Assembly: GCF_020439865.1 (NCBI RefSeq)
Contig: NZ_JAGRPF010000144.1
Coordinates: forward strand, 1 to 64,000
Reading direction: 5' to 3'
DNA length: 64,000 nucleotides
Source: Prosthecobacter sp.
Lineage (GTDB): Bacteria; Verrucomicrobiota; Verrucomicrobiia; Verrucomicrobiales; Verrucomicrobiaceae
How positions within the stretch are numbered: position 1 is the stretch's first letter; the number at the start of each line of letters is the position of its first letter. Below the pieces are notes generated by a model. That model had not been told where the DNA came from. It did not search any database and saw only the letters and a program-made list of their open reading frames with translations. Made by a program: the position numbers and the translations under genes. Of this stretch, positions 16,512 through 28,391 are shown piece after piece.

Positions 16512-16988
16512 TCATCCCTCATTTTTCTTCCAGGTCTGCTCGATGTAGGCCAGCAGGCTGGGGAGCATGCGCTCCAGGTCGCTCAGCGTCGCTTCATACG
16601 CAGAGCGGCCCTGGCCGAAGGGGTCGGACACGTCCTTGCCACGAACGTCGTCCTCCGCGGCGAACTCGGAGACGAGATAAACTTTGTCCACGTGCTCCGG
16701 GAACTCGTCGGCGATCGCCGCCATGTGATGCGAGGACATTGCGAAAACATGCGTGGCCTGATTCAATGCTTCGCGATCAAGCATGCGGCTCTGAAATCCC
16801 GAGAGGTCGAGACCGCGTTCCGTGAGCAGTGCCGTCGTGTGTTTGCTGGCAGGCATGCCGGGGGCGGCGGCCACGCCTGCACTGGCGACCTGATAGTCCG
16901 CACGCTCCCTGACCAGTTCACGAAAAAGCGCCTCCGCCATCGGGCTGCGGCAGGTGTTGCCGGTGCAGACAAAAAGAACGTTTTTCAA
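16512..16988 (-). CDS. Low-molecular-weight protein-tyrosine phosphatase
   Basis: About 158 residues. The P-loop [16 protein letters not shown] (C-x5-R) starts a few residues from the N-terminus, as in all LMW-PTPs, and the general-acid Asp lies in DVSDPFGQG near the C-terminus. The open frame runs further upstream, but this would put 60+ unrelated residues before the P-loop, so I choose the TTG at 16988 (no good ATG nearby). It is divergent from the Ser/Thr kinase at 17173 and is followed by the RpiB-SHMT fusion after 49 bases. The target could be a kinase or a phosphorylated envelope protein. Confidence 0.88.
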
Positions 16989-17172
16989 GATGCGTGGCAG
17001 GTTTGATTCAACCCCGCCGGGGCGGCGGGATGGCAGTGTGTCGCGACACCCCGATTTGTCAAAGGCGGAGCAAAATCGCACCCTTAAGCATTTTCGTGGA
17101 ATATCCCGCTTGCCAAAAGGGCGGCTCATGGGCTTTGCTTCCGTTTGTTCATTTTCAAGCGCGAAAAACCGG

Positions 17173-19773
17173 ATGGCGGAACGATACAAAATCTATGAGA
17201 AGCTCGGCATGGGCGGCGTCGGTGCCGTGTTCCGCGCGTACGACAGCCAGTTGAAACGCTGGGTCGCCGTGAAGCGACTGCTCTCCGCCAACGAAGCCAA
17301 CCTCGACAAAAACACCGCCTCCGAACTGCGGCGCGAGGCCGATGCGCTCGCCTCTCTGCGCAACCCAAACATCGTGACCATCTTTGACGTGGCGAGCGAT
17401 GAGGAAGGGTTGTTCATGGTGATGGAACTGCTGCAGGGTGAGGACCTCGCGGACGTCGTTTCACGCGGTCCCCTTCCCTACGACGATTTCAAAGAACTTG
17501 CTTCGCAAACGCTTGAGGGTCTCCTCGCCGCGCATCAGCACCACATCCTGCACCGCGACATCAAGCCGGAGAACATCAAGGTCGAGCGTCTGCCTGGCGG
17601 ACGCATGCAGGCAAAGATCATCGACTTTGGCCTCGCACGTGCCGGACTGCGCGCGCGCAAGCAGACGGAAGACCAGGAGGGCACGGTCATGGGCTCCATC
17701 TATTACATGGCGCCCGAACAGCTCACCCGCGAACCGGTGGATGAACGCACGGACCTCTACTCGCTGGGCTGTGTGTTCTATGAAGCGCTCTCCGGCAGAA
17801 AGGCTTTCGATGGCGCCTCAATGGCCGAAGTGATCGACAAGCACATCGACCATGTGCTGACGCCTCTGCACGAAATCGCTCCGCATGTGCCGCAGTGGCT
17901 CGGCGCCTGGTGCGCGCGTCTCATGGCACAAAAGCCAGATGACCGCCCGGCCAATGCCCAGCAGGCCATCGAAGAGTTCCGCGCTTGGGAAAAAATGCCC
18001 ACGATGGTGCCCTATGGTCCCTGGATGGGCATGTACGTGCCGCCACCGGTTTACATGCCGCCGGGAACAGGCACGGTGCCGCTGACCGGTTACTACCCGC
18101 CAGCGGAAACCCAGCCTGCCGTCTATGCCGAACCGGTGGTGGAAGCCGTGGCAGTGCAAATCGTTCCCGAGGCGAGCCCCGTAGTCGAAGTCGCCGCCAT
18201 TACGACCCCGCTGGCACCGGCCCCGCGCAAACCCGCCACGGGAGCTACGTCGGCGATGCAACGACGCACCTCGTCCGTGCAACCGCCGGCGCCACAAACC
18301 GGCAAATCCAATTCGAAGCTGATCAAGCAAATTGCCATCATCGGTGGCGGTGCGGTGGTGCTGATCCTCGGCGGATGCTTCTTTTTTGGAGGAAGCGGCG
18401 TGAAGAAGCCAGGGGGCGGCCAGTCCGTCATGACTTCGATCGGCCTTTCTTCCAATCCTCCCAAGGTCAGCTTCCAACTTCCGCAGGACCGCTCTTATCC
18501 GCCGGTAGACCGGGGCATCTGCCTCTTCTATGTAGGAAACACCGGTAACCTGACGAACCGCAAAGGTAGTGACGGCAAACCGGCCCAGGCAAACACCAAT
18601 GAACCCGTGGTCGAGTGGCATGACCTCTCTGAACGCGGCGGAGATAACATTCTGCGAAGCTATCAAAAAAGCCCGGACTACGCTCCGAGACGAGTCAACT
18701 GGCCGGAGGCCAGCACGGGAGGCACCCCTCGAGCCGGGCGCGTAGTGCTGGACTTCCATGCCCGAAACGGCAAGCCCTGCGCCCTCGAACTCGACGATAC
18801 TGGCAAAGAAGTCCAAAACATGCCTTTCGGCAGCAACAGTGTTCCCGGCAGCGACAAAGGACTGACCGTCGTTGCAGCCTTTCAGGCCGATTCGTCAAAA
18901 CTTCCGACACGGCTCTTCACCTTCGGAAACGAGGACGGAACCACCGTTTCCCTGCGGGTGGACGAAAAGAAGAACGTCGTCACCGAAGTGCTCAACAAGG
19001 GAGGCAGCCCCACTCTGACATCCAAGGATGTCGACGGCACGATCGCCTGTCTTGCTTTGATCAGTTGGAACGCCAGCACAGGTGCGGTGGAACTCCGCGT
19101 GCGCGATTCCGCCGGAAAGGCGTACGCTTCTTCAGGCGGCAAGTCCTCCGCGCCGAGCAGCCCGCTCACCAGCCTGCAAATCGGAATGGTAAAGGATGAC
19201 AAAGGAGCGAGCGCCTCTTCCAAAGATCAGTTCAACGGCCACTTGGCCGAATTCTTCGTATACTCAGCCGCCTTGAAGACGGACCAGTTGCAGCTCATCG
19301 ACGGACGCGTGCGTGATTATTACTTCCTGCCCTCGGCACCTTCGCCGCTCCAAACAAGGCTCAAGACCAAGCTTTCCTGGGTCGAGCCACGCAGTTCATG
19401 GAAGCTGAGCGCCAGCAGCAAAAAAGAACTCTGCACAAGGGCCATTGATGGCAACACCGGTTCGCGCTGGGAATCTGGCGCCTCCATGAAAGGCGGCGAG
19501 TGGTTCACTGTCGAACTGCCCAATGAAACCACGGTCGCCGGCCTTGCTCTCGACAGCCAGGGCAACAATCAGGACTACCTGCGTGGCTACAAGATCGAGA
19601 TGTCTGCAGATGGCAAACAGTGGGGCGCACCCGTCGCCGAAGGAACCAACACGAGTTCTCTGACAGAGATTGTTTTCAAAGCTCCGCAGAAGGGCCGTTT
19701 CCTTCGCGTCACCCAGACCGGCAAGACCGGCCAACATTGGGGAATCAACGAACTGGTGCTCTTCAAGCCGTAG
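17173..19773 (+). CDS. Receptor-like Ser/Thr kinase with LamG-like and discoidin ectodomains
   Basis: An 866-residue membrane kinase. The cytoplasmic kinase domain (about 4-270) has the glycine loop LGMGGVGAV, the Lys in WVAVKRLL, HRDIKPEN (127-134), DFGLA and the MAPEQ segment. A Pro-rich linker follows, then one transmembrane helix at about 386-408 (AIIGGGAVVLILGGCFFFGG). The outer part holds a concanavalin/LamG-like region (about 550-720, with LQIGMVKDDKGA and FNGHLAEFFVYSAAL) and a C-terminal F5/8-type-C (discoidin) domain (about 742-866: AIDGNTGSRWESG, RFLRVTQTG, NELVLF). Discoidin domains usually bind sugars or lipids, so it may sense an envelope or external polysaccharide. The ATG at 17173 begins the kinase domain. 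Confidence 0.93.
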   Translation: MAERYKIYEKLGMGGVGAVFRAYDSQLKRWVAVKRLLSANEANLDKNTASELRREADALASLRNPNIVTIFDVASDEEGLFMVMELLQGEDLADVVSRGPLPYDDFKELASQTLEGLLAAHQHHILHRDIKPENIKVERLPGGRMQAKIIDFGLARAGLRARKQTEDQEGTVMGSIYYMAPEQLTREPVDERTDLYSLGCVFYEALSGRKAFDGASMAEVIDKHIDHVLTPLHEIAPHVPQWLGAWCARLMAQKPDDRPANAQQAIEEFRAWEKMPTMVPYGPWMGMYVPPPVYMPPGTGTVPLTGYYPPAETQPAVYAEPVVEAVAVQIVPEASPVVEVAAITTPLAPAPRKPATGATSAMQRRTSSVQPPAPQTGKSNSKLIKQIAIIGGGAVVLILGGCFFFGGSGVKKPGGGQSVMTSIGLSSNPPKVSFQLPQDRSYPPVDRGICLFYVGNTGNLTNRKGSDGKPAQANTNEPVVEWHDLSERGGDNILRSYQKSPDYAPRRVNWPEASTGGTPRAGRVVLDFHARNGKPCALELDDTGKEVQNMPFGSNSVPGSDKGLTVVAAFQADSSKLPTRLFTFGNEDGTTVSLRVDEKKNVVTEVLNKGGSPTLTSKDVDGTIACLALISWNASTGAVELRVRDSAGKAYASSGGKSSAPSSPLTSLQIGMVKDDKGASASSKDQFNGHLAEFFVYSAALKTDQLQLIDGRVRDYYFLPSAPSPLQTRLKTKLSWVEPRSSWKLSASSKKELCTRAIDGNTGSRWESGASMKGGEWFTVELPNETTVAGLALDSQGNNQDYLRGYKIEMSADGKQWGAPVAEGTNTSSLTEIVFKAPQKGRFLRVTQTGKTGQHWGINELVLFKP

Positions 19774-19808: not shown

Positions 19809-20696
19809 TTACTGCATCGCCTTGCTCAACGCTTCACGCAGCGCCTGGGCCTGATCATCACCCAATCCGGCCGGAGCCGCCACGGCGGCGTGAATCATAC
19901 CTTCACGGGTTTCACACGGAATCACCGTGAGCACGTTCCCGGAGGCAAGCGGCTGGCGAATGACCGCCGGTGTTTCACAAGCTGAAACAGCGCTCGCACG
20001 AATCGCCGCCCCCCAGGCCATCATCGTTGAAAGCACCAGTCCTGCTTTCGCTTCACCACCCCACAGCACCTCACCGTCATCACTCATCACCAAAAGGTGG
20101 CCGCCGTCTTCGGACAAAACCTGCCGCGCCCACGCGGCAAACGCCGCCAGACGATCGTGGCGCGATCCATGCGGAACTTCAAAGGCCGGCCCCCGCGTCG
20201 AGGACGAGGCGGGCTTCACCTCGGCTTCAGTCGAAACAACTCCCTCTCCACAACTTTCATTTTCAACATCGGACACGGTAGATGGCACCTCCGGCCGCTT
20301 CTCTCCTGACGAAACCTCGACTGCCCGAGTCAGAATGCCCGCCTCGGTCGCACGTTGACGGATAGCTCGGAGCTTGTCCCGAATTCGGCTCAGTGGCAAC
20401 GCGGCCGCCGCGTTGTGCAGCCCTGCATCCGACTCACATTCCGGCTCCTCCAACGGACCCACAGGATTGTTTTGATCCAATGACACCTGCTGCTCTTCGA
20501 CGACTGAAGTCGCTTTCGACACGGGTTCGATCCAGTCTTCCGCAAATCCCCAAGAATCACCAACTGGTTCTTCCATGATGACCGGCGCCGTCTCGATTTT
20601 CCCCACCTGCGACTCCTTGTCAGGAGATGAACCCTGCGGTGCAATCTGCGCCACCAGTCCCTTGATGTGGTCGGCGTCAATCCATGAGACTTGCAT
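19809..20696 (-). CDS. Roadblock/LC7-like domain protein coupled to ParA-type ATPase
   Basis: A 295-residue protein. The first ~175 residues are acidic and low-complexity (many Glu, Pro, Ser). The C-terminal ~120 residues look like a roadblock/LC7-type domain (HLLVMSDDGEVLWGG, NVLTVIPCETREGMIHAAV); this assignment is tentative. Its start overlaps the end of the ParA/MinD gene by 20 bases, so the two are probably translated together. Roadblock proteins often form homodimers that regulate nucleotide-binding partners such as small GTPases, so a regulatory partner for the ATPase is a reasonable guess. Confidence 0.7.
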   Translation of the reverse strand: MQVSWIDADHIKGLVAQIAPQGSSPDKESQVGKIETAPVIMEEPVGDSWGFAEDWIEPVSKATSVVEEQQVSLDQNNPVGPLEEPECESDAGLHNAAAALPLSRIRDKLRAIRQRATEAGILTRAVEVSSGEKRPEVPSTVSDVENESCGEGVVSTEAEVKPASSSTRGPAFEVPHGSRHDRLAAFAAWARQVLSEDGGHLLVMSDDGEVLWGGEAKAGLVLSTMMAWGAAIRASAVSACETPAVIRQPLASGNVLTVIPCETREGMIHAAVAAPAGLGDDQAQALREALSKAMQ

Positions 20697-21614: not shown

Positions 21615-21944
21615 ATGAAACCCCTCAGCCTCCTTCTTCCATCGGTCGCGCTTCTGATGTCTTCCTGCGAAAGGCATGAACCACTGGAACAACAGATCGC
21701 CGCGTTGGAAGTGAGCGTCAAAGAGAACGAGAATGCCATCGGGAAATACGAAGCGGACATCAATACACTGGGCGGATCCGGCATGCTGGCAACGCTCGAC
21801 GAACAATCCTCCGCGGTGCAACAACGAGTCACGGCGCTGGAATTCGAGAACAACTCCAGAGACAGAAAGTGGTCTGCCATTGAGGCGGAATTCACACGCC
21901 TCAGACCTGCGGCTGAGGCGTTCAAGTCGTCACAGCCAAAGTAA
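21615..21944 (+). CDS. Small coiled-coil lipoprotein (module copy 1, gene A)
   Basis: A 109-residue protein with lipoprotein leader MKPLSLLLPSVALLMSSC and a mature part that is a heptad-like coiled coil (LEQQIAALEVSVKENENAIGKYEADI), then a Gly-rich break and a second helix (SSAVQQRVTALEFENN). It is immediately followed by the B gene at 21959. Its homologue by layout is 22781. The upstream in-frame GTG at 21603 precedes the leader and is less likely. Confidence 0.72.
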   Translation: MKPLSLLLPSVALLMSSCERHEPLEQQIAALEVSVKENENAIGKYEADINTLGGSGMLATLDEQSSAVQQRVTALEFENNSRDRKWSAIEAEFTRLRPAAEAFKSSQPK

Positions 21945-21958
21945 AACAGTCATCCTTC

Positions 21959-22540
21959 ATGTTCCAATTTGATTACAGCACCCTGTTTAAAGCCATCCTT
22001 TTGCTGGCCTTGGTTCTGGGTGGATGTGAATATCTCAACCGCACCGACAAGCTTAAGGAGAGACTAGCAGAATTGAACGCAACACTGCCACAGCTCAAAG
22101 AAACCGCCGGGCTTCGCAGCCAGGAGTGGGCTGAGCTGAAAGCCGCCAAAGACAAACACGACGCCCTGCTCAAACGTGAGCAGACCGAACTGGCGCGCAA
22201 GGACCTGCTCGATCAGAAACAGCGCAAGCTGGAGGGCGAAATCAAATATTTGTCGGCATCGATGAAGACGATCGTCGAAAAGGTGCGCGCTGATGCGATC
22301 GGCACCACGATCGTCGAACTCAAGCTGCCCGGGCGACCTGCGCTCAAAAATGCCAAAATTCTCAAGATCAGCGACGACTCAATCACCTTCCTTCATGAAG
22401 ATGGAGTGGCTAACTTAAAGGTGAAAGCAGAGGAACTTCCGTCCGAGTTTGTTCAGAAATTCGACCTTGGCCCGGGCTCAATTTCCAGACGGCTGCTTCG
22501 CCTGATGGACGAAATTTCGCCCGCGCCACCGCCAAGGTGA
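21959..22540 (+). CDS. Coiled-coil lipoprotein with C-terminal verrucomicrobial domain (module copy 1, gene B)
   Basis: A 193-residue protein with leader FKAILLLALVLGGC, a long Lys/Glu/Leu-rich coiled coil (about 25-110) and a C-terminal domain (about 120-175) containing LKNAKILKISDDSITFLHED and ending FVQKFDLGPGS. The same domain is the first of two copies in the protease at 23127 (KIRKVSEEGIALTHSDG, KEKYDLGPN). So 21959 looks like a shorter homologue of the N-terminal half of the protease. Function unknown. Confidence 0.75.
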   Translation: MFQFDYSTLFKAILLLALVLGGCEYLNRTDKLKERLAELNATLPQLKETAGLRSQEWAELKAAKDKHDALLKREQTELARKDLLDQKQRKLEGEIKYLSASMKTIVEKVRADAIGTTIVELKLPGRPALKNAKILKISDDSITFLHEDGVANLKVKAEELPSEFVQKFDLGPGSISRRLLRLMDEISPAPPPR

Positions 22541-22547
22541 CAACCAA

Positions 22548-22733
22548 GTAGATGCCGCTACTGAGGTCTCGTATATCTCAGCCACCAGCAGGTTGATCAC
22601 CGACGAATTATTGTCTCCAGAGGCAAATGCGCACGGCATTCCCAAGGTCCGGCTTGGAGTTCCGTTGGCCGATCTAGAGAAGAAGATCATTCTTGAACGG
22701 GCCTGCATGTGCAGCCAACACACCCGCAGGTGA
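22548..22733 (+). pseudogene. Remnant of NtrC-type (sigma-54) response regulator C-terminus
   Basis: A 61-codon open frame with no start codon, in the +1 frame relative to the upstream lipoprotein and ending at TGA. It reads ISATSRLITDELLSPE, then VRLGVPLADLEKKIILERA. This resembles the linker between the AAA+ core and the Fis-type HTH in sigma-54-dependent regulators, where a '...PL.E.E...I...L' pattern starts the Fis helix. It diverges from that pattern exactly where the HTH helices should begin. The AAA+ domain is missing. It is probably a fossil; similarity is only by eye. Confidence 0.4.
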
Positions 22734-22780
22734 TTAGTCTTGCCAAGCTCCTAAGACATACGCAATAAAGGCAAATTACC

Positions 22781-23107
22781 ATGAACTATTTCCTCATATT
22801 CGCCTCGTGTTCCAGCCTACTTCTGCTACCTTCCTGCGAAAAGCAAAAGGCTTTGCAGGCGGAATGCGAACGAGTTGAAACTGAACTGAACAACCGGAGT
22901 CAGGAGCTGAGTTCCCTCGACGCCAAATATGCCGCCATCGGCGTCCCCCCCGCAGCGCTGGAACAACAGCGCGCCGTTCTGCTGCAAAACAACACGAAGC
23001 TCGAGCAAGATTTGAAAACGCTCTCAGACACATGTTCTGCCTGCGAGCAGACTCTGAAGGATGCGCGTTCCAAAGTGGACGCCTATGTCGCCAAATACTC
23101 TCGCTAA
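22781..23107 (+). CDS. Small coiled-coil lipoprotein (module copy 2, gene A)
   Basis: A 108-residue protein with a lipoprotein leader (LLLLPSCEKQKALQAEC) and a coiled-coil mature part (VETELNNRSQELSSLDAKY, LEQDLKTLSDTCSACEQTL). Three further cysteines occur in the mature chain. It matches 21615 in size, leader and coiled-coil pattern and is followed by the second B gene after 19 bases, giving the same A-B order as the first copy. Confidence 0.73.
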   Translation: MNYFLIFASCSSLLLLPSCEKQKALQAECERVETELNNRSQELSSLDAKYAAIGVPPAALEQQRAVLLQNNTKLEQDLKTLSDTCSACEQTLKDARSKVDAYVAKYSR

Positions 23108-23126
23108 CGCCCAACCATCTCCAGCC

Positions 23127-25079
23127 ATGTTCAGCAGTTCAAAATTCTGGATCTTGATCATTCTCGCCGTCGCAGGTCTGGGCTACGGAGCCTACCATCT
23201 CAAGACCACCGAGGACGCAGCGCAGGCGGCATTACAGGCGAACACGGCCAGACTCGCCGAGATGGACGCCGCCCTTGCCCAGAGAAGACAGGTGTTGGAG
23301 AACATGGATAAAACCGGCCGTGAAATTCGAGATGCCGTCGGCAGGAGCCAGGAGCTGTCAAAGAACAAGGCTGTCCTGCTGGAGAAGCAGAACAAGATCG
23401 GCACCGACTTCCAAACGGTCGTGGACTCGATGACGGCGACCGTCGAAAAGCTGCGTTCCAGTGCCCCGGGCAGTGAAATCGGAACGCTATCCCTGGCCAA
23501 CGGGAAGATGCTCAGCGGAGTCAAAATCAGAAAAGTGTCGGAAGAAGGCATCGCTCTGACTCACTCGGACGGCATCGGCACCGTCGCCGTGGACTTGCTG
23601 CCTGAAGATCTCAAAGAAAAATACGATCTCGGTCCAAACGCCTTCGCACCCAAGCTCGCCGCTGCCAAGGTTGCCTTGATGGCAGAACTGCACAAAAACG
23701 ATGCCGCCATAAATTCACCAATGCCCGGCAATATGTCCCCGGCAGCAACGGAACAGAATCCCGGCTCCCCACTGGCTGCTGTAGTCACCCCAAAACTTGA
23801 GGTTACCGAAGCAGGGGGCACCAAAACATACGCAAATGTTCGGTTTATGGGCGTCTCTGATCAAGGTGTCCGAGTTTCCCACGACGCAGGCATTTCAGTG
23901 CTTCCCGTAGCCTCGCTCCCAGAAACTTGGCGTGCAAAGTTCATTCCAAACACATCTGGACCGCCAATGACCGTTCCTTCCTCGGGTTCTGCAACGGCGG
24001 GAAGCACGGCATCCAGAAGCACTCCAGCCCAGTCATCATTCGACCCGAATTCGCTCGTTTTCATCAAGACGGACTCCGGAGCCGGCTCGGGATTCATCGC
24101 CAAGGTCAATGACAAGACTTATGTTTACACCAATGCGCATGTCATCTGTGGAACCCCGGGAGGATTCACCAAAAAAATCGTCAGCATCAAGACAGCCGCA
24201 GGCAGGGCGATTCCCATTCCCTATGATCTGGAATTGTCCAACATGTACGATGCGTCCAGCAGCAATGGTCTGGAGGACATGGCACGTTTCGCAATCACCC
24301 TCAAGGAGGGCGAGACCGCCTACGACCTGGGAGGACTCAATTCCGACACCTCAATGAACCAAAAGGTAGTGGCCTATGGCAACAGCCTGGGAGGTGATGT
24401 CATCACTTCCTTGGATGGAGATATCGTGGGTCTTGGCACGGACAGAATCGAGATCAGTTGCGGGATCGTTGCCGGCAACAGCGGCGGCCCTGTCGTGATG
24501 GCAGACACCAAGAAGGTCATTGGTATTTCAACCTATTTGAGCACTGGCAAACGGGACATTTGGACCAGCGGAACGGCATTCTCTCAAGTTCGTCGGTTTG
24601 CACTGAGACCCGAGAAGGTCACCAAGTGGAGAAAAATGCTGTACACCTCCTTGATGAGTTCGTTGGCGGAACTGAAAGCCTTTGATCGCGATACCCTCTC
24701 CCTGGCCGCAGCTTGCTACCTCAACCCAAGACCAAATCGCGGCGGTTTCGACGTTCCAAGCCAGCAAAACGGTGACTATGTGATTCGCCAAGTCTTGGTG
24801 GATGGAGGCAGTCTCACCCTTGGCAGCACCATCAACGCAGGAATTGCCAGGGTAAATCAGCGCCTCGGCGGGGCGACAGCAACGATGTCTGTTTCTTCGG
24901 TAGTGCCCATCTTTGCAGAGTTCTTCAGCTCTGTAACAAACGCCTCCGCCTCACAAATGTCGTCGCTGCAAATCGCCGACCGCGCCCCCTACCTCAAGCA
25001 GTTCATTCCCGAGTTGATCGCCATCAGGAAAGAAATACACGAACGGTTCATTCAAGAGGGCCTCACACGTTACAGGTAA
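23127..25079 (+). CDS. Membrane-anchored trypsin-like serine protease with two verrucomicrobial repeat domains (module copy 2, gene B)
   Basis: A 650-residue protein anchored by an N-terminal helix (FWILIILAVAGLGYGAYHL). A coiled coil follows (about 25-115), then two copies of a small domain (NGKMLSGVKIRKVSEEGIAL and YANVRFMGVSDQGVRVSHD). The C-terminal half is a trypsin/HtrA-type protease: SGAGSGFIAKVN, YTNAHV with His338, DMARFAI with Asp384, and GIVAGNSGGPVVM with Ser452. No PDZ domain is visible. It is predicted to cut proteins outside the inner membrane. The ATG at 23127 gives the anchor; the frame is open from 23061. The N-terminal half matches the lipoprotein at 21959. Confidence 0.9.
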   Translation: MFSSSKFWILIILAVAGLGYGAYHLKTTEDAAQAALQANTARLAEMDAALAQRRQVLENMDKTGREIRDAVGRSQELSKNKAVLLEKQNKIGTDFQTVVDSMTATVEKLRSSAPGSEIGTLSLANGKMLSGVKIRKVSEEGIALTHSDGIGTVAVDLLPEDLKEKYDLGPNAFAPKLAAAKVALMAELHKNDAAINSPMPGNMSPAATEQNPGSPLAAVVTPKLEVTEAGGTKTYANVRFMGVSDQGVRVSHDAGISVLPVASLPETWRAKFIPNTSGPPMTVPSSGSATAGSTASRSTPAQSSFDPNSLVFIKTDSGAGSGFIAKVNDKTYVYTNAHVICGTPGGFTKKIVSIKTAAGRAIPIPYDLELSNMYDASSSNGLEDMARFAITLKEGETAYDLGGLNSDTSMNQKVVAYGNSLGGDVITSLDGDIVGLGTDRIEISCGIVAGNSGGPVVMADTKKVIGISTYLSTGKRDIWTSGTAFSQVRRFALRPEKVTKWRKMLYTSLMSSLAELKAFDRDTLSLAAACYLNPRPNRGGFDVPSQQNGDYVIRQVLVDGGSLTLGSTINAGIARVNQRLGGATATMSVSSVVPIFAEFFSSVTNASASQMSSLQIADRAPYLKQFIPELIAIRKEIHERFIQEGLTRYR

Positions 25080-25105: not shown

Positions 25106-27322
25106 TCACTCCCCGCCCGCGACCTCGCGGTTCAGCGGTGTGTAGTGTTCGAGGTAGCCGATCATCATTTCGTCAAACGTCTGCTGGCCCCAGCGGACGT
25201 TTTTCGTTGGGTCGGGGTTTGCCGGATTGCCGGCGCTGTTGTCGAATACGGCGGTGATTTTGATGGTGGTGCCTCGCGGCAGAAAGCGGGGCTTGGCGTA
25301 GTCGTAGCGGAGCTGCCAGTTGAAGTCGTATTTGGGGATGTCGAGCAGCGTCTCGGTCTTCCCATCGGGTGAGATCGCCTCGAATTTGAACGCCTTCCCG
25401 CGCACGTGCATGTGGGCCATCCATGCCATGGCATTGATGTCCACGGGCAGCTTGCGCTGAGCCGTTTCCACGTGATTTGCGGCTCCAGCAGGGATGCTGA
25501 TGCGGGCGTTCGGCAGTGCGGTCGTATGAATGACGTATTTTGGCGGTTCCTTCGCGAAAAGCAGGCCCATGCGCATCGTGTCCTGCACGGCCTTGCCATT
25601 CGGTGTGTAGTGAATCTGAAAGCTCACCGTCGCTCCAGCCGGCAGTTTGCGTGCAAATCCTTCGGGATAGATCTGCTTCGTGTTGCCAGGCACGTAGGCG
25701 GCCCAGTAGCCTTCGGAGCCCTCATCGCCACCGCCGCGCACTTTGCGCCCTTTTTCATAGACGGAGACGATGACGTGATGCACGACCTGACGTTCGGTCG
25801 GCAGGATTTCATAACCGCGCACCCAGCGATCTTCCGGAAAGTCAGTGCTTACGGTCACGTGCTGGTAGGGCATCGTGCCCTCGGCCTTGATCGAAATCGG
25901 CTTCGCCGCTGCGATGATGGCGTCCGGCTTGCCAATGCTCCACTCACTCTGGAACTGGCGCGGCTTCGGCGCGTCAGCCACATCTCCCTTCGGACGATCG
26001 GATGCGAGCCAGGCGAGCAGGTCGGTGCGATCACGTTCCGACAGCGAACGATCATTGGCCCACGGCGAATGTGTCGCACCTTCAAGCGGCGCTGCGAACC
26101 ACGGAGGCATCGCGCCACGCTCCACCTGCTTGCGGATCATGCCTGCGTGCTCGGTCACCGCCTCGAACGAATCGAGCGCGAACGGACCCACGCCGCCTTC
26201 GTGATGACATTCCACGCAGTTTGCCTGCATGATGCGCGCGACGTCGCGATGATAGGTGACGTTCGTGCTGGCGACGGCGTTTTGAGCGGGCAAATCCAGC
26301 GCACAGCCCGGCGCGCTCGTCGCAGCGATCTCCGCCGGTTCGCCTCGCAGCATCGCGGCGACCGCATCACGCAGGTAATGATGTTGCGGCTGATCTTTGC
26401 TGTAGCCGAGACCGTACTGGTCGTTCAAAGCACCGCGATAAACGAGCGTACGCGAAGAATCGAGAAGGAAGACTTCCGTGGTCGTGGTCGCAGCCAGCGT
26501 CTGCGCGAGTTTGCTATCGGCATCGAGCGCCACTTTCGACTTCAAGCCACGGTCGGCGATGAACTTGGCGATCTCGTCGTTCTTCTGACATGGGGGCGCA
26601 TTGACCAGCAAAACATGCAGCCCCTGCTCTTTCAGGTCGGATTCCAAACGTGCCGTTTCAGGCGCCAACTTGCCGCTGATCGGGCAGGTAGAGCTGAACA
26701 GGGCGATTACGAGACCATTCTTTCCAGCAGCGCCACTCAGTTTGATTTCTGATCCATCTAGTGCTTTCAGCGCGAGATCCTCCACCATGCGACCGACGCC
26801 GTGTTCGCTGCCTTTCAGAAACAATGGCGCTTCTTTGAAGGACGGATCCTCGCTCGCTGGCTTGATCGGATCTCCACTGGTTGGCATTTGACCTCCCGCC
26901 CCCCGCTTGCGCAGACTGGCGAGTGTTTTGACGGCCTCGTCCAGCGTCACGCTGCCGTCTTTGTCAGTGTCGAGACCATTGAACCACTTCTTGTTCGGCA
27001 ATTCATCCTCGGTGAGCGTCCCATCGCCGTTTTTATCCAGGCGCTTGAACAGGCTGCCTGTGTCCGAACCACCGACGAGATTCTGAGCCTTACGCACGCT
27101 CTTCAGCGCCTCGTCGCGGGTCAGCATGCCGTTCTTGTCGGCATCGAGCATTCTTAAATAGGCGGCGCTGTTCATCTCGTCGCCGCTGATGACACCGTCG
27201 CTGTTCTTGTCGAATGCTTTGAACTTCTCATCGAACTCCGTGAGCTGCACCTGGGCGCGCAGGCCAATGGCGGAAACGGCCAGCACAACGCCGCCGAGGA
27301 GAATGAAGCCAAGTTTTTTCAT
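25106..27322 (-). CDS. Secreted EF-hand / redoxin / cytochrome / copper-monooxygenase-like multidomain protein
   Basis: A 738-residue secreted protein starting at the ATG at 27322 (MKKLGFILLGGVVLAVSAIG). Four EF-hand loops are visible at about 38-49 (DKNSDGVISGDE), 60-71 (DADKNGMLTRDE), 96-107 (DKNGDGTLTEDE) and 118-129 (DTDKDGSVTLDE). A thioredoxin/AhpC-type domain follows (about 178-335) with one Cys in STCPISGK, then a CVECH heme-type site (369-373) and a C-terminal region (about 450-735) resembling type-II copper monooxygenases (RQVVHHVIVSVYEKG, AHMHVRGKAF). Possible roles are periplasmic redox or lytic chemistry with Ca2+ binding. PVC genomes carry related layouts; the substrate is unknown. 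Confidence 0.88.
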   Translation of the reverse strand: MKKLGFILLGGVVLAVSAIGLRAQVQLTEFDEKFKAFDKNSDGVISGDEMNSAAYLRMLDADKNGMLTRDEALKSVRKAQNLVGGSDTGSLFKRLDKNGDGTLTEDELPNKKWFNGLDTDKDGSVTLDEAVKTLASLRKRGAGGQMPTSGDPIKPASEDPSFKEAPLFLKGSEHGVGRMVEDLALKALDGSEIKLSGAAGKNGLVIALFSSTCPISGKLAPETARLESDLKEQGLHVLLVNAPPCQKNDEIAKFIADRGLKSKVALDADSKLAQTLAATTTTEVFLLDSSRTLVYRGALNDQYGLGYSKDQPQHHYLRDAVAAMLRGEPAEIAATSAPGCALDLPAQNAVASTNVTYHRDVARIMQANCVECHHEGGVGPFALDSFEAVTEHAGMIRKQVERGAMPPWFAAPLEGATHSPWANDRSLSERDRTDLLAWLASDRPKGDVADAPKPRQFQSEWSIGKPDAIIAAAKPISIKAEGTMPYQHVTVSTDFPEDRWVRGYEILPTERQVVHHVIVSVYEKGRKVRGGGDEGSEGYWAAYVPGNTKQIYPEGFARKLPAGATVSFQIHYTPNGKAVQDTMRMGLLFAKEPPKYVIHTTALPNARISIPAGAANHVETAQRKLPVDINAMAWMAHMHVRGKAFKFEAISPDGKTETLLDIPKYDFNWQLRYDYAKPRFLPRGTTIKITAVFDNSAGNPANPDPTKNVRWGQQTFDEMMIGYLEHYTPLNREVAGGE

Positions 27323-27443
27323 GGAGTAGGGAGTGTGAACTCGATCTGTGACCGGAAGTTTCCTGCCGTATGACAGGATCATCCAGTCAAAATCGCACCT
27401 GGGCGATTGACGCCGCGGTTCCCGTCCGTTTGAATCGGCCTCG

Positions 27444-28391
27444 ATGAACAACCGTATCCTCTCCCTCCTGTCCGTCATGGCCCTCGCCGGCAGCGCCGCC
27501 GCCGAAGTCGCTTATGAATTCGTCCCGAACTTCATCACCCCGCCTCCCGGCAAGGAAACCATCGGCAACGGCCACGGCGAAATTGGCGTGGACTCTTCTG
27601 GCAAAATCTATGTGAGCGTCCAGGACAAGGACGCTGGCATTCAGGTCTATGGGACGGACGGCAAATTCATCAAAGCACTGCCACTCCCTCCCTCGCTCCA
27701 CGGATTTGTGATCCGCAAGGACGATGGAGGCGAGTTCATCTTCGCCGCCGTCTTGGGCGAGCAAAAGGTCATCAAATGCGATCTCGAAGGCCAGGTGCTC
27801 ATGACGATCCCGACGAGCGAATTCCCCGCCGACAAGGTCGGCAAGGGCCTCAAGCTCACCAACTGCGACGTCGCTCCAAATGGTGACATTTATGTCGTCG
27901 ACGGCTACGGCCAGAGCCACATCTTCATCTTCAGCCGCGAAGGCAAGTTCAAGGCTGTCTTCGGTGGCCCGGGCGAACCTCTGAAGCTCGCCAATGCGCA
28001 CAAGATCTTCATCGACAAGCGCTTCGAACCCGCCCGCGTCATGATCTGCGACCGCGGACACAAGCGCATGCTGCACACCGACCTCGCCGGCAACTTCATC
28101 GGCGAAATTGCCGCTGAAATGCGCAATCCGAGTTCCGCCAGCTTCCATGGCGACCTGATGTGCGTGGCCGAAATCGCCGGCAACGTCAGCGTTTGGGACA
28201 AGGACAACAAGCGCGTCGCCGACCTCGGCACCAGCCCGAAACCGACCAACACGCCAAAGATCGAGCCTAAAGACTGGCAGCAGGGCATCGTGACGAGCCC
28301 GCACGGCATCACTTTCGACAACGACGGCAACATTCTCGAAACCGAATGGAACCAGTGGGGCCGCGTGCTGCGCTGGAACGTCAAGAAATGA
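27444..28391 (+). CDS. Secreted NHL-type six-bladed propeller
   Basis: A 315-residue protein with a signal peptide (MNNRILSLLSVMALAGSAAAE) and NHL-like repeats such as GEIGVDSSGKIYVSVQ, NCDVAPNGDIYVVDG and HGITFDNDGNILETEW. NHL propellers often bind proteins, peptides or sugars; a few are enzymes (peptidyl-amidoglycolate lyase type). It is divergent from the copper-monooxygenase-like gene (121 bases), which is notable because eukaryotic amidating enzymes pair the same two folds. No direct evidence links them. It overlaps the next gene by 4 bases (ATGA). Confidence 0.82.
   Translation: MNNRILSLLSVMALAGSAAAEVAYEFVPNFITPPPGKETIGNGHGEIGVDSSGKIYVSVQDKDAGIQVYGTDGKFIKALPLPPSLHGFVIRKDDGGEFIFAAVLGEQKVIKCDLEGQVLMTIPTSEFPADKVGKGLKLTNCDVAPNGDIYVVDGYGQSHIFIFSREGKFKAVFGGPGEPLKLANAHKIFIDKRFEPARVMICDRGHKRMLHTDLAGNFIGEIAAEMRNPSSASFHGDLMCVAEIAGNVSVWDKDNKRVADLGTSPKPTNTPKIEPKDWQQGIVTSPHGITFDNDGNILETEWNQWGRVLRWNVKK

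Follow-up and report, generated by a model that had tools for sequence, protein, structure and literature searches.

The S1C serine proteases of the HtrA/DegS/DegQ type (Pfam Trypsin_2) have a trypsin-like fold with a His-Asp-Ser triad, and DegS is a membrane-anchored periplasmic protease. The Lpp/OprI alanine-zipper lipoproteins are short coiled-coil lipoproteins. In the PilN/PilO/PilP alignment complex, a lipoprotein is combined with coiled-coil proteins that are anchored in the membrane and have a small beta domain, and short strands forming a small barrel are found in SH3/Sm-like domains (Hfq-like, PWWP, SH3). The locus described here lies in a 64,000-nucleotide stretch of DNA from Prosthecobacter sp. 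(the window) and encodes proteins that resemble each of these in part. It consists of two A-B gene pairs, and the second B gene also codes for a trypsin-like protease. A literature search, short of full texts, found no description of the A-B pair.

Identification and Relatedness of the Two A-B Gene Pairs

The four open reading frames of an earlier note on this DNA were recovered unchanged as two pairs at 21615-22540 and 22781-25079. A1 (21615..21944, + strand), coding for a coiled-coil lipoprotein of 109 amino acids, is separated by 14 nt from its partner B1 (21959..22540, + strand; 193 amino acids), and has syntenic orthologues in three related genomes (G041, G037, and G021). A2 (22781..23107, + strand; 108 amino acids), likewise coding for a coiled-coil lipoprotein, precedes its partner B2, whose start at 23127 is consistent with the aligned homologues. 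A search of the spacer (22540-22781) for the relic of a third pair gave no match.

Pairwise BLASTP of A1 against A2 yielded nothing useful (E 0.34). As the two proteins are too diverged for this method, related loci were searched with profiles, which matched A1 and retrieved 35 A and 37 B genes from the window and related loci. In an exclusion test, the profile was seeded from A1 alone and A2 was always left out, and vice versa. The A1-seeded profile found the excluded A2 with E 4.5e-17 in round two and 2.7e-19 in round three, and the A2-seeded profile found A1 with E 2e-15 and then 4.6e-26. B1 and the N-terminal half of B2 share 30% identity over 185 residues (E 2e-18). The claim of two consecutive, related A-B pairs was thus borne out, for A by profiles (E 1e-15 to 1e-26) and for B by a match at BLASTP level, and the outcome that the earlier note named as refuting did not occur. 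A chance resemblance of unrelated coiled coils would fit the negative BLASTP result, and coiled coils do yield weak spurious Pfam matches, but the exclusion tests reached E 1e-15 or better and each A protein recovered by profile is encoded directly before a B gene; this explanation is refuted, and we assign it virtually no probability.

All 35 A genes are followed immediately by a B gene on the same strand, in most cases after 11-36 nt; a few called A or B starts overlap the upstream gene, one B gene is fragmentary, and the two B genes without an A gene of their own each adjoin another B gene. The distance matrices of the A proteins and their B partners correlated with r = 0.893 (maximum of 0.315 in 5000 permutations), which shows that A and B are inherited as a unit. 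Within-genome partner swaps in genomes with several pairs matched this value in 2 of 5000 cases, approximately the frequency of the unswapped arrangement itself. Because linked genes give congruence without interaction, congruent A and B trees are not proof of contact between the two proteins. The dN/dS values determined with three relatives ranged from 0.15 to 0.36 for all six gene types tested, which indicates purifying selection on each of them. The A and B families are therefore real, and their genes are paired, duplicated, inherited as a unit, and under selection for function. The A and B profiles were also collinear from the N-terminus (hhalign, 82%), a match that may reflect generic coiled-coil similarity.

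Anatomy of the A and B Proteins

In an alignment of 24 A proteins, the lipobox Cys after the hydrophobic N-terminus was the only invariant column; lipobox-type N-termini are present in A1 and A2, in agreement with their description as small coiled-coil lipoproteins. A lipobox is also present in B1, whereas B2 and the B-mid proteins start with a hydrophobic membrane segment that lacks one. The charges flanking these N-terminal segments showed little topology bias, and topology was read from hydrophobicity.

In the AlphaFold2 model of B1 (pLDDT 82.8, 11 sequences), a single helix (residues 6-113) is followed by a small beta-barrel (residues 117-156; pLDDT about 80-90 for the barrel domain). The best PDB matches of the barrel in Foldseek and VIA-align searches were Hfq-like and other small barrels, with weak scores (Z about 4.5). 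VIA-align with B1 returned mainly Hfq-like barrels and myosin helices and was uninformative on function. The barrel has the signature K-I-x-K-V...H-x-D-G...LP...DLGP. Neither Pfam nor NCBIfam contained a match to A, B, or the barrel (the latter in B1, B2, and the other barrel proteins scanned), and Pfam SH3 and SHD1 specifically gave no match in these barrel proteins. The B profile detected a second copy of the barrel in B2 (E 7e-11), confirming the earlier assignment of two copies of this small domain to B2. Elsewhere, the same small barrel occurs in one protein with a superinfection-immunity membrane domain of Pfam (L094:1441-2088), and two more barrel-domain proteins are encoded close together in the window's own genome (G000:C164:13469-14467).

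The Protease Domain of B2

The AlphaFold2 model of B2 is only fair (pLDDT 68.5, pTM 0.44, 13 sequences) and places a helix (residues 5-111), a barrel (strands within 117-154), a linker, a second barrel, another linker, the protease, and a helical C-terminal domain in this order. The N-terminal half (23127..23642, + strand; residues 1-172), recognised by its match to B1 and in the model, comprises the membrane anchor, the long helix, and the first barrel. It is followed by the second small barrel (23787..23960, + strand; residues about 221-278), the trypsin-like protease domain (24036..24590, + strand; residues about 304-488), and the C-terminal domain (24591..25079, + strand; residues about 489-650).

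The protease domain matched Pfam Trypsin_2 with E 3.5e-9 (38 bits, cut-off 27.6), and its Foldseek matches lay among DegQ, DegS, and HtrA (E about 1e-8). The proposed triad was located exactly at His338, Asp384, and Ser452, and all three residues are invariant in eight homologues. As judged from sequence and model, the B2 protease is predicted to have an HtrA/DegS-like fold with an intact triad. The NCBIfam HtrA equivalog model scored 19.5 bits, far under its cut-off of 416.2, and no Pfam PDZ match was obtained in B2 at E up to 1. The C-terminal region, mostly helical in the model, is conserved together with the protease in fused and unfused homologues. Trypsin-like proteases from Victivallis/Lentisphaeria (L061, L062, L063, and L064) carry C-terminal zinc-finger motifs of the CxxC-x-G type that look DnaJ-like by eye.

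Origin of the Duplicated Pair and of the Protease Fusion

The slot between the gene for a ParA protein and that for an EF-hand/redoxin protein holds different numbers of A-B pairs in related genomes: three in G041, G037, and G027 (with a protease fused to the third B), two in the window, G021, and G047, one in G045, G032, and G022, and none in G059. The EF-hand/redoxin gene of the window (25106-27478, - strand) codes for a single protein in which EF-hands and an AhpC/redoxin domain occur with a copper monooxygenase C-terminal domain and a cytochrome-c-like segment, the last one scoring below cut-off.

B1-type proteins cluster in one clade of the B tree (100/100), and B2 together with the B-mid copies in another (100/100), both with other species; the A partners of the B1 type are likewise grouped (99/99). 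Since B1 and B2 fall into separate, well-supported clades, the duplication predates these species, and a recent local tandem duplication is ruled out. Of the proposed duplication followed by protease capture, the duplicated two-gene unit and the gain of a protease by one B gene stood, whereas its placement as a local tandem event within this genome did not.

In G059, the gene that immediately follows ParA in this slot is unfused and codes for a signal-peptide-like N-terminus, one barrel, and a protease. The second barrel of B2 shares 51% identity with that of this G059 protein, and 45% and 40% with those of the unfused G046 and G060 proteases; its identity to the first barrel of B2 is 32%. An origin of the second barrel by internal duplication was therefore rejected. 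These identities show that B2 arose by the fusion of an entire B gene with an entire, pre-existing gene for barrel and protease. The locus thus records a gene fusion, and the unfused gene is still in place in a relative.

The fused protein of G041 has a single barrel (53% identity to the first and 21% to the second barrel of B2); proteins of this type either lost the second barrel later or arose separately. The fused genes fall within a clade (100/100) in which most B genes lack a protease, and the monophyly of the four fused proteins within it is weak (50/62), which leaves room for two fusions, one giving the two-barrel form of the window lineage and one the single-barrel form of the lineage of G041, G037, and G027. 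The different barrel content and the grouping of the window protease with the unfused one of G059 (84/89) argue for two events, but the four fused proteins are together in the best B tree and a single clade of fused proteases was not rejected (p-AU 0.139); we regard two fusions as quite plausible, if somewhat short of probable. In another genome (G034), the second B gene is split by a TAG stop (L049:6583-7501), and the pair looks like a decaying copy.

Distribution and Genomic Neighbourhood

Within the family, 66 of 68 genomes gave a B-profile match, in some cases with the barrel only. In the phylum, 63 of 388 genomes matched; matches covering coil and barrel were nearly all from the two sampled families of Verrucomicrobiales, and those outside the order were mostly to the barrel alone. 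The full A-B pair occurs in both sampled families, in the second often in the order A-B-B'. In a genus of this order with compact genomes (2.2-3.5 Mb), presumably Akkermansia, all 10 genomes examined have a gene for a lipobox coiled-coil protein 18-22 nt before B. This protein resembles A only marginally (E about 1e-4 to 0.2), and its identification as A therefore depends mainly on position and anatomy. An unnamed gene pair thus recurs across the order and, if this genus is Akkermansia, is testable in a studied gut bacterium. Coil-barrel-protease proteins with no recognised A are encoded in G067, G299, and G369; the joining of the barrel to a trypsin-like protease therefore happened, or persisted, more than once. 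Single-protein scans of named-genome contigs and viral contigs gave no relative, nor were any found in phage records; fused relatives came to light when named genomes were scanned with an alignment.

Beyond A and B themselves, no neighbour was conserved across the order. The adjacent ParA gene occurs as a single copy in 65 of the 68 family genomes, among them many with the A-B genes elsewhere and genomes that lack them, and the adjacency of ParA and A-B is confined to a subset of the genus. The co-occurrence check proposed in the earlier note consequently lends no support to a coupling of A-B with ParA, which is near-universal irrespective of A-B. The product of 19809-20696 (- strand), earlier called a roadblock protein, had no Pfam match at E 0.001; its gene is conserved beside ParA. 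Also syntenic near ParA is a gene (16954-19773, + strand) for a Ser/Thr protein kinase with a C-terminal F5/8 type C domain. A role in anti-phage defence was rejected, the PADLOC matches being generic trypsin and coiled-coil hits.

Proposed Arrangement in the Envelope

The reading we put forward, and hold with even confidence, is that A and B build a helical stalk rooted in the membrane and topped by the barrel, and that B2 carries an HtrA-like protease on this stalk. A would be a short lipoprotein whose mature part forms a coiled coil, and B a membrane-anchored protein whose helix of ~100 residues would carry the small SH3/Sm-like barrel into the periplasm. Both may wind into one mixed coiled-coil stalk, with A and B attached to the same membrane and the barrel as a head recognising a ligand or protein. 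The B2 fusion would then hold the serine protease at a constant height over the inner membrane, where it could cleave envelope proteins brought to it by the barrels or the stalk. As for the lipoprotein/protease system of the envelope suggested earlier, placement there is a reasonable inference.

The main rival to a shared stalk is a bridge between the membranes, with A in the outer and B in the inner membrane, their antiparallel coils acting as an Lpp- or TolA-like spacer, and the protease as a later addition. The similar coil lengths of A and B, the combination of a lipoprotein with an inner-membrane partner, and the absence of a protease from most B genes are in line with such a bridge. In E. 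coli, Asp after the lipobox Cys disfavours outer-membrane sorting, a rule that may not hold in Verrucomicrobiota; Asp, Glu, or Asn follows the Cys in 19 of the 24 aligned A proteins, which speaks against the bridge, as does the lack of an Lpp-family match above cut-off (NCBIfam NF040598: 15.2 for B1, cut-off 43; A1 and A2 not among the matches). We consider the bridge rather unlikely.

A2 adjoins B2 and is co-inherited with it, as would be expected if it were a dedicated regulator or inhibitor of the B2 protease, like RseB-type control of site-1 proteolysis. However, A accompanies protease-less B in many genomes, and the unfused proteases of G059, G046, and G060 have no called A gene beside them. 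A is therefore not primarily a protease regulator, and such a role for A2 appears improbable. Extending the shared stalk with its barrel head to the whole order, we tentatively suggest that A-B might be an undescribed envelope scaffold serving as a mounting platform, with enzymes such as the trypsin-like protease fused to the stalk so as to work at a defined distance from the membrane.

Comparison with Known Systems

Like the PilN/PilO/PilP complex, A-B combines membrane-anchored coiled-coil proteins and a small beta domain with a lipoprotein, but the PilN match was insignificant (E 0.2) and no pilus genes were recognised nearby. The B barrel may resemble SH3/Sm-like barrels in its predicted short strands (Z about 4.5, a weak score); it differs in having no detected sequence similarity to them, in being presumably secreted, and in its own signature. 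A shares with Lpp/OprI the plan of a short coiled-coil lipoprotein, but its mature part comprises about 90 residues and its gene was always found beside a B gene. With the HtrA family, B2 has the protease fold and the His-Asp-Ser triad in common. It would, like DegS, be a membrane-anchored periplasmic protease, with barrels in the place of the PDZ domain of DegS. In comparison with the HtrA family, B2 has no detected PDZ domain and adds a stalk formed by a long helix, a pair of small barrels, and a C-terminal domain that is helical in the model.
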